NCBI GenBank assembly: GCA_013054445.1
Contig: JAAMPI010000111.1
Location: forward strand, 1 to 64,000
Source: Cudoniella acicularis
Lineage: Eukaryota; Ascomycota; Leotiomycetes; Helotiales; Helotiaceae
DNA: 64,000 bases
Reading direction: 5' to 3'
A program made the translations under genes and the position numbers. Within the stretch, counting starts at the first letter, position 1. The number at the start of each line of letters is the position of its first letter. This document shows, piece after piece, positions 3,099 through 9,315 of the stretch. The notes beneath the pieces are model-generated. The model did not search any database, was not told the DNA's origin, and was given only the letters and a program-made list of their open reading frames with translations.

Positions 3099-5006
3099 CT
3101 AAGCATTGGAGTCGTTGGTAGTCCTGTTTTGCCTCAGTGCTTTGAATTTATTCGCAAATTGTTGACGTTTGTCAATCTCAACTGCCAAAGCTCCAGTCCG
3201 AGAAATCGTGGTGCTGATATGAGTTAGGGGGCCGGCTGTTCCTCCCCAGATTTCTGGACTTTCGCTTTGTGTCGTTGAGTTGTTCATAGTTATAGTCTTT
3301 GTGTGTTGTAGCAACTCAACCCTTCGTTCAATTTGAAACCCTTCACCACTACGACGCACAGCATCTTGCATTTTTGCCATCTAGTCAGTAATTAGCTTCA
3401 AAATAAGAAACAATCTCGGCTTGCGAGTAGGATATCTAATAATTTTCGTATCACCGATTCACCGAGATGGGACGTCTTACCGAAGAACGGAGTCCTCGCC
3501 CAAAAGTCTTCATCCTCATTGACGCCGCTTTGCCTCTTGACTCAGCTCGTGGGACCTGATTCTCAACAGGTGGGGTATATCCAGTGCTGCAGGCGTCCAT
3601 GCCGAACTGTGTTTTTCGAATGTGATTGAACCCGTGGCGCCAGAGTCGGTAGAGAATTGGGGCGTTTGCAACGGCGGTCTTCAGAGGTGTAAGTGGATGC
3701 AGATATATTTGGGATATTCAAATGACTAGGCCTTTGCCATAGACTCACCATCAAAAAACACTCGACCTAAATATGCAAATTAGCATGGACTAGCCACAAG
3801 TGGGGATCCTCATTCTTACCTGTCCCCAAATGAGGAGGTTTGGCTGCCAGTGCGCTGGATCCGAGTCAACTCGAGCGACGGTGACGATCCGTGTTATTAT
3901 CACTGCGACAACCTAGGCCCACGTTTAGTAGCGAGTACGAGGGAAGATGACAGGTCCTTACAAAAAGTGCACCGAAAAAGACTGGGGTTATCTGAAAAAT
4001 TGTTCTATATTTTTGTCAGTATCATGTCCGTAAAACCAATGAAATAGCCAACCTGAGGGGAAGGCCCTCCCTGATAATTATCGGCAGAGGTATCCCTATC
4101 AATACCAGGTTGGTGAAAATGTCTGTCTGGACTGTAATCAGCGAGAGACATTCCTGATTGCCAGAAAATGTACGCACCGATGCCATTACTAGGGTGCTAG
4201 CTACCTGTGGTTTGTTAGTGTAGTTTGAAGGCAGAATTGAGGGAGGTTCTCACAGCTTCCTGTTCCTAGTCAGCTGCGAACCATTAAATGAATGGAGTGT
4301 AATACTCACAGCACACTCAGGAACTTGTGGAAGAACCTGCCATTCCAACGACAGAGGATTGCACTCGAGAAATATTGAAACCATGCATGCTAGCCATGTT
4401 ATCGCAACCGAAATTCCTGCCGCTTTGATAATCATAAGTTCAATCATCCGGTCGGTAATTCGAGTGTAGAATATCAGCTTGAAAGTTCATCAGCACTCTG
4501 CTCTTCCATCCACCCAAGAATTGTAAACCCACTATGCAAGCCTTTGTAGACCATATATAGGACAGAAAGAACGGACGGCCAACGAGGATGAATTGGGAGC
4601 CAAGCATGACTGTCGCCGCAATTAGCAGATGGCCTTCAAGTAAGTAGTGGGGGGGATGTATACCACGTTGGATCTGGTGTGGGGACAATTCTCCGGGGTC
4701 GATGGCAGCGAAATTGGTGCCGTTGTAGTACTGTAATGCATCAGCATGATGGCGATGCCACAGATTCTGGCAATCGTTTACAGCGATAGGAAACACAGCC
4801 GTGTAAACGGCATAGAGCACTACCGAAGCCAACATGACGAAGTCGTCTAACAAATACTCCTCATGTTTCAGGCGGCGGAGGATCGTCCTGGAAATGATGA
4901 TCAAGAACGAGACACCAGTAAGCGCGAATGCGACACCAACCACAGCTACGTTCCATGGCTGAATGATCGTGGTCTGGTTGCGACCGGTGTCGTTCATAGC
5001 TGCCAT
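3099..5006 (-). CDS. Rhodopsin/SAT4-domain integral membrane protein (Pth11-like family)
   Basis: Seven-helix membrane protein of the fungal SAT4/rhodopsin-like family (related to Pth11 receptors, no CFEM). Joining exons gives the family signature in order: N-terminal helix with ISRTILRR, then LLDDFVMLASVVLYAVYT, LSPHQIQRG, FFLSYIWSTKACI followed directly by LIFYTRITDRM after a 54-nt intron (about 4475-4528), an FLECNPLSLEW loop, TNLVLIGIPLPII, FFGALFVVAVIITRI, and DPAHWQPNLLIWGQVE. The cytoplasmic tail ends with a Thr/Ser-rich stretch and TTTISRTGALAVEID, typical of the family. At least seven introns are needed, several only about 50 nt. Start at 5006 (MAAMNDTG) precedes the first helix. Ligand and role are unknown. 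The gene is separated from the upstream sensor gene by about 950 nt with no clear ORF. Confidence 0.8.
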
Positions 5007-5961
5007 CTGCTTTCGCAGAGAAAGTCGCGAGAGAAAGAATGAAAATTGGAGATGAAGATTATGAAGGGTTTATTTAGAAGGAATCAGAGAGGGTAGGGAC
5101 CCGGCAGCACGGTTGTGAAGAGTTCCGTGGGGAACGACTGTGGAAGGTGCGAAGTGGGTGTCTTTGCGTATAAAAGAGAAAGAGCTTAGCGGGCCACGCC
5201 CTAGACATGTAAAAAGCCCCAGAGACTACGAAAAAAGCGAAAGAATATATCCAATCGTGCAGGTCGCACAACCCCTCGGAGTGAGAGTGGGAGTATCAAC
5301 TTCTCTAGCGTGTCTGTGTGGCACCAGATCAACAAATATTGCCTTCTAGAAGCTGTCGCCAAGGGACTTGCCTAATGACTATTTGTCGTCAACATGAAGA
5401 GAACGAGATAATTGAGTACGGCATAGAGTACTTCCACGTGTATCTAAGGAGAAAGGTAGGTCAAGTCATGCCTCATGGGTTGAATGAAACTATACGAGGA
5501 TCGCACGTGGCGAGGAGATCAGAGATATAAGAGAAAATCACTTCGAGAAGAAGACAACAAGAACCCCTCTTTTTTCACGGGCCACTGCAGGACCCACCGT
5601 ACTCGGCCGTTTGGAGCGTTACACATTAGCACAGCCGATGCTGCAAGCAGTCGATGAAGTTGCATGCACAATCCTTGACTCGAATCCGGTATGCTAGCTG
5701 AAAGACACGGATACATGCAGATGGTCTGACGATGCGGTGCGATACCTTCCAAACTGCCACGTGTGATTGGCCCCAGTCTCGAGAGAAAATGGGTTGCATT
5801 ACAGTTCGTGGATGTTGAAGCCCGGACAAGGCGTCTCAAAACTGTATTGAGATGCTGCCATATTCTCATCCCATTAGGGCGCTGAGGATATTTCAAGATT
5901 CCGAGGAAGGGAAGAGCCCGCGCTGTAAGGATTGAAGTGGCTACAGCATTACTCAATGCTG
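5007..5961. other. Intergenic between SAT4 gene and GlcNAc sensor-like gene
   Basis: Promoter side of the SAT4 gene (to about 5300), then 3' side of the next minus-strand gene. Open frames at 5519-5992 and 5626-5829 show no family motif and overlap the neighbouring gene's 3' end, so I see no gene here. Confidence 0.5.
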
Positions 5962-8900
5962 TTACCATTGATAGCCTTCGTACTCCCAACATACCTCAAA
6001 TCCCAATTTCTCATAAAACCCCCTAATCACAACCCAGTCAATGCAGACACCTGCTATACCCCTTTCTTTCATGTTTTCCATGGCCTTCACCAAAAGTGCA
6101 AGACCCACGCCTTTTCTTCGAGCGTGTTCATCCACACCCACACAGGCTATCAAACCTGTATTCGGGCCTGAAGGCATGAGAGGAAGAAAGGCGAAGATAT
6201 TGCTGACAAGAGCGGATGGCGAACACATTAATGTCCAACCGACTTGAGCTCCATCTTCATCGAAGGCGACCATGACTTCGTGGTGCTGATTTGCTTTTGC
6301 GAGATCTTCGTAGGCCTTGACCCAACCCTAAAGAGTAAATAATGAGTACATGAAAATATACGTGAAAGAAAATGCACGAACGATGTTCTTGAAATTTGCC
6401 CTTTGTTTTGTCATGCATTCGGCATACATATCTGGTGACCAAGGCGCGAACTTGAGAGGTAATTTTGAGATTCGCTCGACAATATCAGGCGGCGCCACAT
6501 CTTTAGTGATATCTCTGTAAAGATCTCGTGCTGTTGGCTTGGTAGATTTGCGAAACCCTGCAGATTCTTAGTTATAAAATACGATTATGAACTTTAAGGT
6601 ATGCAGACCTCTGTGCAGGAAGAAATCTTTTGTCTCTTGAGGAAAGTCAATGGGAACGCCAGGCCAAAGGCGTGGGAACACGGAGCCGATACCAAGACAG
6701 AGTAAATCCCTGCTTCCATTTGCGATAGCCTCGGCTCTCAGTTCTGCCCGTGCTCTTTTCACCAGGGCTGTCCCTATTCCTTTGCCCCGGGACGGTGCTA
6801 AGACGCCAATTATTGCTATCATGCCGTGGCTTGGTTCTACAATGTAAGTCATACAGAAACCGTCCTTGTGTAGGAGATGTGTTCCTCTGGAAAGGAACTT
6901 TTCTAGGCGTTGTTTTTCGATTCTCCACTTTGGGAATATTTCTTGCCACATTGCCCAAATCCCGTCAATATCCTCAGTTGTTCCAGTGAAGGGTCTAATG
7001 TGATGTTTGGGCGTGACGATACCGACAGGCAGTGAGCCAGACGGCTTGATGTTCCCAAAAATCACATCGACGGCCGATCTGAATGCAGGAATCGTCGGCT
7101 CGTAAATTGCGATATAATTTTTGATCTCTTCAATTTCCTCGAGAAAGTCGTAGGGGTCGCACGTCGAAATAACAATCAGCTTACGCCCAAGCTTCTTTCC
7201 TAGCAAAAGGCCGAGTTCTTTTTGATATGGACTCAAGCTTGCATTCCTTGTAGCGAGGACCACAAACTCTGAATCTTTCAGGGCCTTCTCTGATTCGTAG
7301 GTGAGGGGAACCCCATCAAAGAAACGTATCTCTACAATCGCTTGATTATGAACTCGCAGCAGATCGAGATATGTTGCAGGTGTATAGGGCTCCCTTGTTT
7401 GCTTCTCGCCGCCTTCAACGGCTCCTCCGCCTGCTGCCGTTTTACCAGGACTGACGAAGACAATTTTACTCCCGGGACTTGATGGAAGAGGAAATATTCC
7501 CGGTTCGCTCCGAACCACAGTTGTGCTTTTAGCGTAGATTTCGGATGCGAGTTGGAAATGTTTCTTATTGTCACTGCGCTCATTTCGCAGCCTATCCTCA
7601 TCCAATATCAGGGAGGTCAGTTCTTTAGCGGTCACGCGAACATTTTGTCCCACATCCTGACCGTCTTGATCGATATACTGAAACTCCCCCAAAGCCTTGA
7701 TAATGTAGATGTTTTTGCGAGTCCAGGTGACAAATAGTTCTGAGCCTTCACGGAGACAGTAAGCTAGAATTTTCAGTGCTCTCAACGCATTTCGCCACTT
7801 CTTATCTTTGTCATTCAATTGTTTGTCGAGCATGTCCATGATTTCATAAAAGTCGTTCGATGAAATTTTGGACCTCTGAGCTACTTCACTCATCTCGCTC
7901 TCCGGTGGGGCCCAAGGATCGTTGGAGGTTAGACCCCAATTTCTTCGGGATTCCGAATTTTCGAGTGTAGAGGCTAATATGAATTTTTCTGCGGTAGATA
8001 AGTACTGGGATTTGAGGCGACTGATTCTGTCTACAGATGCTTGAATAGCTTGTTGAAAAAGCTCCCCAGATTTTACAGCCTTAAGGACTAATTCGATAGC
8101 TCCAACTTGAGCAGCCATAGTATGGCAAATCATGACACAATCCGTTCCTGCCTAAAAATTAATGTCAGCCGTGATCTTTATCCCCGGGATGAAAGCATCA
8201 AATATGCAGACCTTCAAGGCCATCACAGCCGCTTTCTCCGTCCCATATGGAGCACGGACTCCATCCATTTCCAGGCAATCGCTAATAATCAACCCTTTGT
8301 ACTGCATTTCATTCCTTAGGATCTGTATGGCAGAAGGATTGAGGCTTGCTGGGAGTTTCTTGGACTCCTCATTGTGGTCCATGCTTGGGCCTTCTATTCC
8401 GGACATCACAATATGTGCTGTCATCACAGCATCGACATTTTCTGCAGTAGCTCTGCGAAATGGAATAAGTTCACATGCATTGATCATGGCCTTGCTCTTT
8501 GATATAACAGGAAGTCCATAGTGCGAATCGACAGCAGTGTCTCCATGACCAGGGAAGTGCTTCACACATGGGACAATACCACCTTCTCGGAGTCCTTTGA
8601 TCTGCCCTGAAACAAATCTCCCAACAGCTTCGGGGTCATCTGACACTGATCGAACACCAATAACAGGATTCTTCGGTTCTGAATTGACATCGGCAATTGG
8701 TGCATAATTCATGTTGATACCAAATTTCTTGAGGGTTTCCGCGGTAGCTAAGGCTACTTTGTACGCGTTTGAAGTATCTTTCGTGGCTCCGAGGGCCATA
8801 GAACCTGGTAATTGAGCTGCGATTGGGGATTTGATCCGAGTGATGAGCCCATTTTCCTGGTCAATGGCAATGAAGAGATCTTGGGAGTGGCCAGCCGATT

Positions 8901-9315
8901 TTGCAATCTCTTGAAGAGAATTTGTGAGGCTCAGGAGTTGAGTCTCACTTTGGACATTCCGCTGAAAGAGAATGACTGTCCCGATCTTGTGAGTGGTGAT
9001 GAGGGTCTTAATATCCTCGCTTGGCACGTGACCATGGAAGCCAACGATGAAGAGCTAGATATGCAGCGTCAGTCAGTCATATGATACCAAGGGATATTAT
9101 ACCTCTGAATGAGAGATAAGCCAACAATGCCAGCCTATCCTCCAGGTGGCGTGGGGGCTTTCCGCGCGGGAGCATGAAGGTCCATGAAAAATGAGAGAGG
9201 TCGGGTTATGGTCTTCGATTGCAGTATTGGAGAAAGTGTTTGAGCTTACCTGTCCTACTTTGGCCCTGAGCTCTTCCTCAGACCAGGGAGTTGCGTGATT
9301 CGATAGGCTTTCCAT
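5962..9315 (-). CDS. Ngs1-like GH3-GNAT protein carrying an inserted ENTH domain
   Basis: Resembles fungal Ngs1, the N-acetylglucosamine sensor whose GH3-like part binds GlcNAc and whose GNAT part acetylates histones. Exons 9315-9250, 9054-8212, 8151-6609, 6557-6382 and 6327-5962 sum to 2994 nt, giving 997 aa. Start MESLSNHATPWSEEEL is followed after the first intron by QLFIVGFHGH. Residues 23-355 are a GH3 beta-N-acetylhexosaminidase domain with KHFPGHGDT (about 187-195) and the nucleophile in SDCLEMDG (Asp about 281). Residues 373-500 are an ENTH domain. Residues about 507-680 resume the GH3 C-terminal region (SEIYAKSTTVVRSEPG). Two GNAT folds follow, with CoA-loop motifs RGKGIG (about 757) and RRKGVG (about 946). 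The frame is open throughout. It is transcribed divergently from an Ngt1-like transporter. GH3-GNAT architecture is known in fungi; the ENTH insertion is not known to me. Confidence 0.88.
7561..7944 (-). other. ENTH (epsin N-terminal homology) domain segment inside the GH3-GNAT gene
   Basis: About 128 residues matching the ENTH core of epsins in order: SNDPWAPPESEMSEVAQ, DFYEIMDMLDKQLNDK, KWRNALRALKILAYC, GSELFVTW, NIYIIKALGEFQYID, GQDVGQNVRVTAKELTS and LILDEDRLRNERSD. The lipid-inducible helix 0 that precedes this core in real epsins is absent; the upstream residues are GH3 linker (STAEKFILASTLENSE). The segment has no intron, no stop and no frame disturbance at either junction. ENTH domains bind phosphoinositides in endocytosis; what it does here is unknown. 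Confidence 0.85.

Follow-up and report, generated by a model that had tools for sequence, protein, structure and literature searches.

Structure of the locus

The window, by which we mean the whole 64,000-nt stretch of Cudoniella acicularis DNA analysed here, comes from a contig of 65,708 bases in a single 53-Mb assembly of 1836 contigs. On its minus strand it carries a GH3-GNAT gene, for which our own gene model gives five exons between positions 9315 and 5962 and a product of 997 aa; all introns are GT-AG (195, 60, 51 and 54 nt), and the model agrees with the public protein P0001 (G7Y89_g2509) over the first 987 aa. Exon 1 (9250-9315, minus strand), with its start codon at 9315 and a GT-AG intron, matches P0001, and exon 2 (8212-9054, minus strand) encodes most of the GH3 (beta/alpha)8 barrel (PF00933, 232 bits), with the stretch 7942-9057 being 79% identical to residues 22-379 of the Halenospora varia protein. 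Exon 3 (6609-8151, minus strand) contains the end of the barrel, a linker interrupted by an ENTH insert, the GH3 C-terminal alpha/beta/alpha part and the first GNAT domain. The second GNAT region begins in exon 4 of our model (6382-6557, minus strand) and is completed, together with the stop codon, in exon 5 (5962-6327, minus strand), where PF13508 and PF00583 both score above cut-off and the C-terminus aligns with relatives; 5965-6561 matches H. varia residues 699-879 at 78%.

The Asp-Ser-His hydrolase motif is intact at residue 187 (KHFPGHGDTAVDSH; 8521-8562, minus strand, by pattern match), and the motif SDCLEMDG, placed by alignment at 8260-8283 (minus strand), contains the Asp that we take to be the GH3 nucleophile, with a looser pattern present in 117 of the 119 listed relatives. 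Both GNAT motifs are present, RGKGIG at residue 758 (6772-6789, minus strand; PF00583, 21.7 bits against a cut-off of 20.7) and RRKGVG at residue 946 (6103-6120, minus strand, by pattern match); GNAT motifs of the RGKGIG type have a role in acetyl-CoA use. The initial annotation had assigned the GH3 catalytic residues and two GNAT domains to the 1543-nt exon that holds the ENTH segment. The catalytic motifs instead sit in exon 2 (8260-8562), and exon 3 holds one GNAT domain, the second being encoded by exons 4 and 5.

In a Pfam scan of the 527-aa open frame that includes exon 3 (6568-8151, minus strand), the GNAT domain was just over its cut-off, and the same frame gave scores below cut-off for the end of the GH3 N-terminal family and for part of the GH3 C-terminal family; the C-terminal part, with its Pfam score under cut-off, was assigned by alignment to relatives and to the PDB chain 4zm6. 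That GH3-GNAT chain is the best PDB sequence match and aligns on both sides of the insert, and the next 15 PDB matches are all epsin-type ENTH chains. GH3 barrel, C-terminal part and GNAT domains follow one another along the chain, which places the protein in the GH3-GNAT family, with the same arrangement as Rhizomucor miehei RmNag (PDB 4ZM6), Trichoderma reesei NAG3/NGS1 and Candida albicans Ngs1. Unlike these three, it has a 125-residue ENTH insert between the barrel and the C-terminal part.

Two further features of the gene model deserve mention. The donor GTCTGC, uncommon as an intron donor, opens two of the introns (8206-8211 and 6603-6608). The public model G7Y89_g2509 (1406 aa) joins the GH3-GNAT gene to its neighbour after residue 987 (window 4440-6000); PF20684 is among its precomputed domains, while the single frame 4440-5069 alone gave no Pfam match. 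The Chlorociboria protein P0018 has the same domain pair as this merged model, so that the GH3-GNAT gene and its PF20684 neighbour are apparently conserved side by side, and both joined models probably arose by artefactual merging. Six relatives end in similar residues, which suggests that the GH3-GNAT gene really stops at 5962.

A Pfam scan of 16 further open frames in the window, 14 of them at least 230 aa long and two of them shorter neighbours, gave no sign of a GlcNAc gene cluster: 10 of the 16 had a match at E <=0.001, none to a family named for GlcNAc catabolism, a weak negative given that the scan misses short exons.

The ENTH insert and its absence from relatives

Alignment with 14 relatives, which are Leotiomycetes where named (an assignment we presume), delimits the insert to 125 codons at 7570-7944 (minus strand; residues 373-497), with no host residue lost. 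ENTH (PF01417) scores 121.5 bits in the frame 6568-8151 (E 2.7e-35, cut-off 24 bits) and 125.7 bits when the ENTH-only stretch is scored alone. Pfam score and alignments thus agree with the initial description of an in-frame ENTH domain, lacking helix 0, in the linker that follows the GH3 barrel; the span first proposed, 7561-7944, contained the insert, and its borders are revised to 7570-7944, with the epsin-aligned part at 7570-7930.

Three protein searches addressed whether the architecture occurs elsewhere. The first (7997 candidates scored, 4899 matches) found PF01417 in no protein but the window's own among the best 120 matches, and all 119 relatives listed span the insert site without an insert, with linkers 10 residues shorter to 9 residues longer than the host's own. 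In a search with the ENTH part among proteins of about 548-1745 aa (280 candidates, 163 matches), the best 120 matches carried PF01417 alone or with PF08226 or PF02809, and none had GH3 besides the window's own protein, which was also the sole return of a third search (about 773-2460 aa, 112 candidates). Within the listed matches and length limits of these searches, a GH3 plus ENTH architecture was met in this genome only, and the check proposed at the outset produced no second such protein. Literature searches, with mostly open-access coverage, returned for ENTH combined with GH3 and acetyltransferase architecture a single paper, which concerns a cyanobacterial GH3, no match for epsin fusions in Leotiomycetes, and among the matches listed none for an ENTH domain in a fungal retrocopy, retrogene or gene-fusion context. 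The one paper retrieved for the C. acicularis genome, PMC10569646, deals with mating genes.

Conservation of the host protein

The genome search located one GH3-GNAT copy; after it, matches to the H. varia protein score below 29 bits. Outside the insert, the host has changed at 3 of 239 positions invariant in the 14 relatives, and the same test applied to each relative gave 2-16 changes at 238-252 invariant positions. Relative-rate tests against H. varia with four outgroups detected no acceleration of the host (chi2 0.0-0.67), and tests against P0003 were mixed: one outgroup made the host the slower of the two (5.12), three made it the faster (0.91, 2.21 and 7.45).

The hydrolase motif, K-H-[FI]-P-G-[HL]-G-x4-D-[ST]-H, is intact in the host and in all 119 listed relatives. 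In the available text of PMC12176254, this Asp-Ser-His motif is defined and described as kept in RmNag, and the host motif is as described there; in the available parts of PMC5063960 and PMC12176254, C. albicans Ngs1 and T. reesei NGS1 are described as sensors that have lost the catalytic residues, with GlcNAc sensing and histone acetylation reported for the Candida protein (PMC5063960). Unlike these two sensors, as they are described there, the host retains the motif. Because the motif is kept in the host and in RmNag and lost in CaNgs1 and TrNGS1, we regard the host as an RmNag-like GH3-GNAT protein that is probably active. The sensor role in its initial designation as an Ngs1-like GlcNAc sensor is putative, with the hydrolase triad retained, unlike in CaNgs1 and TrNGS1 as these sources describe them. 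The presence of the motif in all 119 listed relatives raises the prospect that many family members may be active hydrolases.

Origin of the ENTH segment

Besides the insert, the genome holds two ENTH loci: L002, called Ent3-like by reading its sequence, and L003, an Ent1/2-like epsin of 551 aa, from exons joined by eye. L003 has two unusual residues of its own: at ENTH index 29 it carries Val, against Ile in all 119 others compared, and at index 113 it carries Met, which among those epsins occurs only in P0159.

The insert contains an epsin-derived block of 361 nt (7570-7930, minus strand) that aligns without gaps to L003 exons 2, 3 and part of 4, and epsin introns 2 and 3, at both exon borders, are absent from it. 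The matched pieces are 87, 82 and 86% identical; overall 66 of 360 nt differ (82% identity), and 92 of 120 ungapped residues are identical. Three methods gave a silent divergence of 0.45-0.67 and a replacement divergence of 0.11-0.15. Profile and nucleotide comparisons found no further copy or other source of the insert in the genome. The exact loss of two epsin introns indicates a spliced RNA as the source, and judging from these alignments the insert is an RNA-derived partial copy of the genome's own epsin gene; the retrocopied epsin fragment that had been raised as a possibility is thereby borne out at the DNA level.

In a set of 121 ENTH sequences, only the own epsin and the fused copy combine Ser at index 10 with Asn at index 115; Asn 115 and Met 113 of the own epsin recur in the metagenome epsin P0159, indicating some homoplasy. 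At the protein level the own epsin is the nearest by a narrow margin, with 28 differences where the runners-up have 29. The Ser-10/Asn-115 pair speaks for copying within the C. acicularis lineage, later than its divergence from H. varia, a species without the insert. The phylogeny originally proposed for comparing the segment with the resident epsins gave no placement: in a tree of 37 rows chosen from the 121, the fused copy sat on an end branch of about 0.3, unsupported at the midpoint root. The link to the own epsin came from the residue pair and the nucleotide match.

Comparison of the flanks by eye revealed no poly(A) at the 3' edge of the insert. AAGAAA occurs at both insert edges and was considered as a target-site duplication, but the two copies are out of frame with the host, which leaves no simple duplication. 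Target-site duplications and poly(A) traces are expected of LINE-type events and not of break repair. The 5' edge lies at most 1 nt from the epsin exon 1/2 junction, a proximity that might be a clue to mechanism, although the edge is not sharp, as 7 of the 15 nt before the copied block also match epsin. Break repair with spliced, intron-free mRNA copies has been shown experimentally in mouse, as described in the available text of PMC4516963. The present insert resembles the captures at double-strand breaks described there in being an intron-free partial mRNA copy with no in-frame target-site duplication, and differs from them in that it interrupts, in frame, a coding exon of a gene conserved in other respects, and in that the genome is that of a wild fungus.

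Constraint on the fused ENTH domain

The 361-nt block contains no indel or stop. We compared it with 120 epsins, the own epsin included, at 85 near-invariant positions (at least 95% conserved), and found departures at 17 of them in the fused copy against 2 in the resident epsin; the two copies differ from one another at 19 such sites, 2 of which are derived in the own epsin. Of all 28 residue differences between them, we assign 23 to change in the fused copy and 2 to change in the own epsin; the remaining 3 are of ambiguous direction. With silent changes shared between the branches at 50:50 to 70:30, a range assumed without coding DNA from a third species, omega was 0.58-0.41 on the fused branch (p against neutrality 0.08-0.002) and 0.08-0.14 on the epsin branch. 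Falling below 1, the fused-branch value gives a hint that the protein is under some selection; at about 0.4-0.6 it is barely separable from neutral.

We also asked of the changes themselves whether they bear a mark of selection for the ENTH core, and their kind and place were not different from those under neutral mutation: 7 of 23 fell on hydrophobic positions (P 0.34), 3 were hydrophobic-to-polar (P 0.48), and the summed BLOSUM score gave P 0.28. A cruder simulation that placed all changes on one branch returned 0 of 20,000 runs as conserved as the observed copy, and a stop-free chance of 0.07; it was set aside because it also counts changes on the constrained epsin branch. Judged by these comparisons, the frame is kept and epsin-level conservation is not. 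The earlier reading, that epsin-level conservation implies selection, does not survive the departures at 17 of 85 near-invariant sites (against 2 in the own epsin) and a pattern of change close to neutral.

The available parts of PMC8129110 and PMC10128014 describe a PIP2 pocket formed by helix 0 (K3 and K10), R24, N29, K61 and R62, a second PIP2 contacted by K66 and K68, binding of Rga2 by Y100 and T104, and a contact with ANTH made by these two residues together with E107; H72 is also listed for lipid binding (PMC10128014). The copied block starts after helix 0 with K3 and K10 and after R24. Of the nine functional residues within the block, three are changed: codon 414 (7819-7821, minus strand), equivalent to the PIP2-pocket R62 of yeast Ent1/2, encodes Gln; codon 424 (7789-7791, minus strand), equivalent to the lipid-binding H72, encodes Asn; and codon 456 (7693-7695, minus strand), equivalent to T104 on the ANTH and Rga2 surface, encodes Ala. 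All 120 epsins have Arg, His and Thr, respectively, at these positions. The fused copy aligns with the resident epsin over 120 ungapped ENTH residues and, unlike the Ent1/Ent2 epsins, lacks helix 0, the native helix 1 and the epsin tail, with helix boundaries as we take them to be. Three changes among nine functional residues are not clearly above the 28 in 120 overall, and relaxed constraint explains the pattern better than removal aimed at these residues. Two substitutions, Ile to Arg at index 18 and Phe to Lys at index 20, could, speculatively, be a response to the missing helix 1.

A first structure model of exon 3 was discarded for its ENTH part, the mixed alignment having set epsin tails, not ENTH domains, against the insert. 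In a second run the best model, of moderate confidence, had a mean pLDDT of 65.6 and the other four 51.5 to 38.7; the ENTH piece is predicted probably still to fold.

Alternative explanations

Taken together, we consider it probable that the in-frame epsin cDNA piece is a young, tolerated passenger in the length-variable linker of the GH3-GNAT gene. The same data bear on a reading in which the ENTH domain is a recruited module, kept by selection for a new protein partner or location. An intact frame free of indels, a fused-branch omega somewhat below 1 and the retained equivalents of N29, K61, K66, K68, Y100 and E107 (roles as given in the available parts of PMC8129110 and PMC10128014) would all be expected of such a module; the near-neutral distribution of changes over hydrophobic and polar positions, the 17 lost near-invariant sites and the lack of a second species with the insert among the matches listed by three protein searches speak against it, and we judge it unlikely. 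Quite unlikely, too, is the specific form in which a lineage-specific chimera uses an ENTH domain, which would have lost lipid binding together with helix 0 and its pocket residues, as a protein-interaction or allosteric module that would link the intracellular GH3-GNAT protein to the endocytic or polarity partners of epsin. As for the role proposed at the outset of a spacer or protein-binding module, a spacer fits, and a protein-binding part is conceivable.

Alternatively, the ENTH segment might be spliced out as an intron, leaving an ordinary protein. Between 200 nt upstream and 25 nt downstream of the insert start for donors, and between 12 nt upstream and 150 nt downstream of its end for acceptors, 28 frame-preserving GT-AG pairs span the segment, the most plausible being GTACTT...GCGCAG (432 nt), which has branch-like motifs. 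Donor scores separate poorly (2-3 of 4 for the gene's real donors, at most 2 of 4 for the candidates), but an intron of 432 nt would exceed the gene's 51-195 nt introns and take about 20 linker residues with it, and the public model retains the segment as coding; we hold this to be distinctly unlikely.

That the ENTH domain ties a sensor to PI(4,5)P2 membranes, the phosphoinositide link first suggested, has little left to stand on, the lipid site being largely uncopied or changed. The ENTH domain is a PIP2-binding fold (PMC8129110, available text) and the fused copy retains the equivalents of N29, K61, K66 and K68, but the copied block includes neither R24 nor helix 0 with its K3/K10, and R62 and H72 have become Gln and Asn, which makes this reading highly improbable. 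Weak residual lipid binding is possible nonetheless: in the available part of PMC10128014, yeast R62L and H72L impair function in part only and still partly complement, and the mutants in the available parts of the two papers (R62L, H72L and T104D; PMC10128014, PMC8129110) are unlike the substitutions found here. An assembly or joining artefact, conceivable for a segment seen in one genome and on one contig, is scarcely credible when the insert differs from the resident epsin at 66 of 360 nt, lacks its introns, has both joins in frame and has no other source found in the genome.

A model for the insertion and its significance

Combining these results, we chart a model for the tolerated passenger. 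A piece of spliced epsin mRNA would have been reverse-transcribed in the C. acicularis lineage, and the cDNA inserted in frame into the linker that joins the barrel to the C-terminal domain in the single GH3-GNAT gene detected, most likely through capture during break repair. The mature mRNA would retain the ENTH segment, and the host protein, judging from its sequence, would work on as in its relatives. The ENTH piece would fold and serve as a presumably inert spacer under weak selection, no longer acting as an epsin.

The locus offers a clear case of a multidomain protein gaining a whole domain in one step, in which the parent gene, the insert-free relatives and the changed residues are all visible. 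It also carries a warning: a chimera may give a strong Pfam match for a domain whose function it has not kept. Should the segment be expressed, the fused protein would provide a direct test of how well a conserved enzyme tolerates a domain-sized insert, and of whether a fold borrowed from another system is reused or merely carried.
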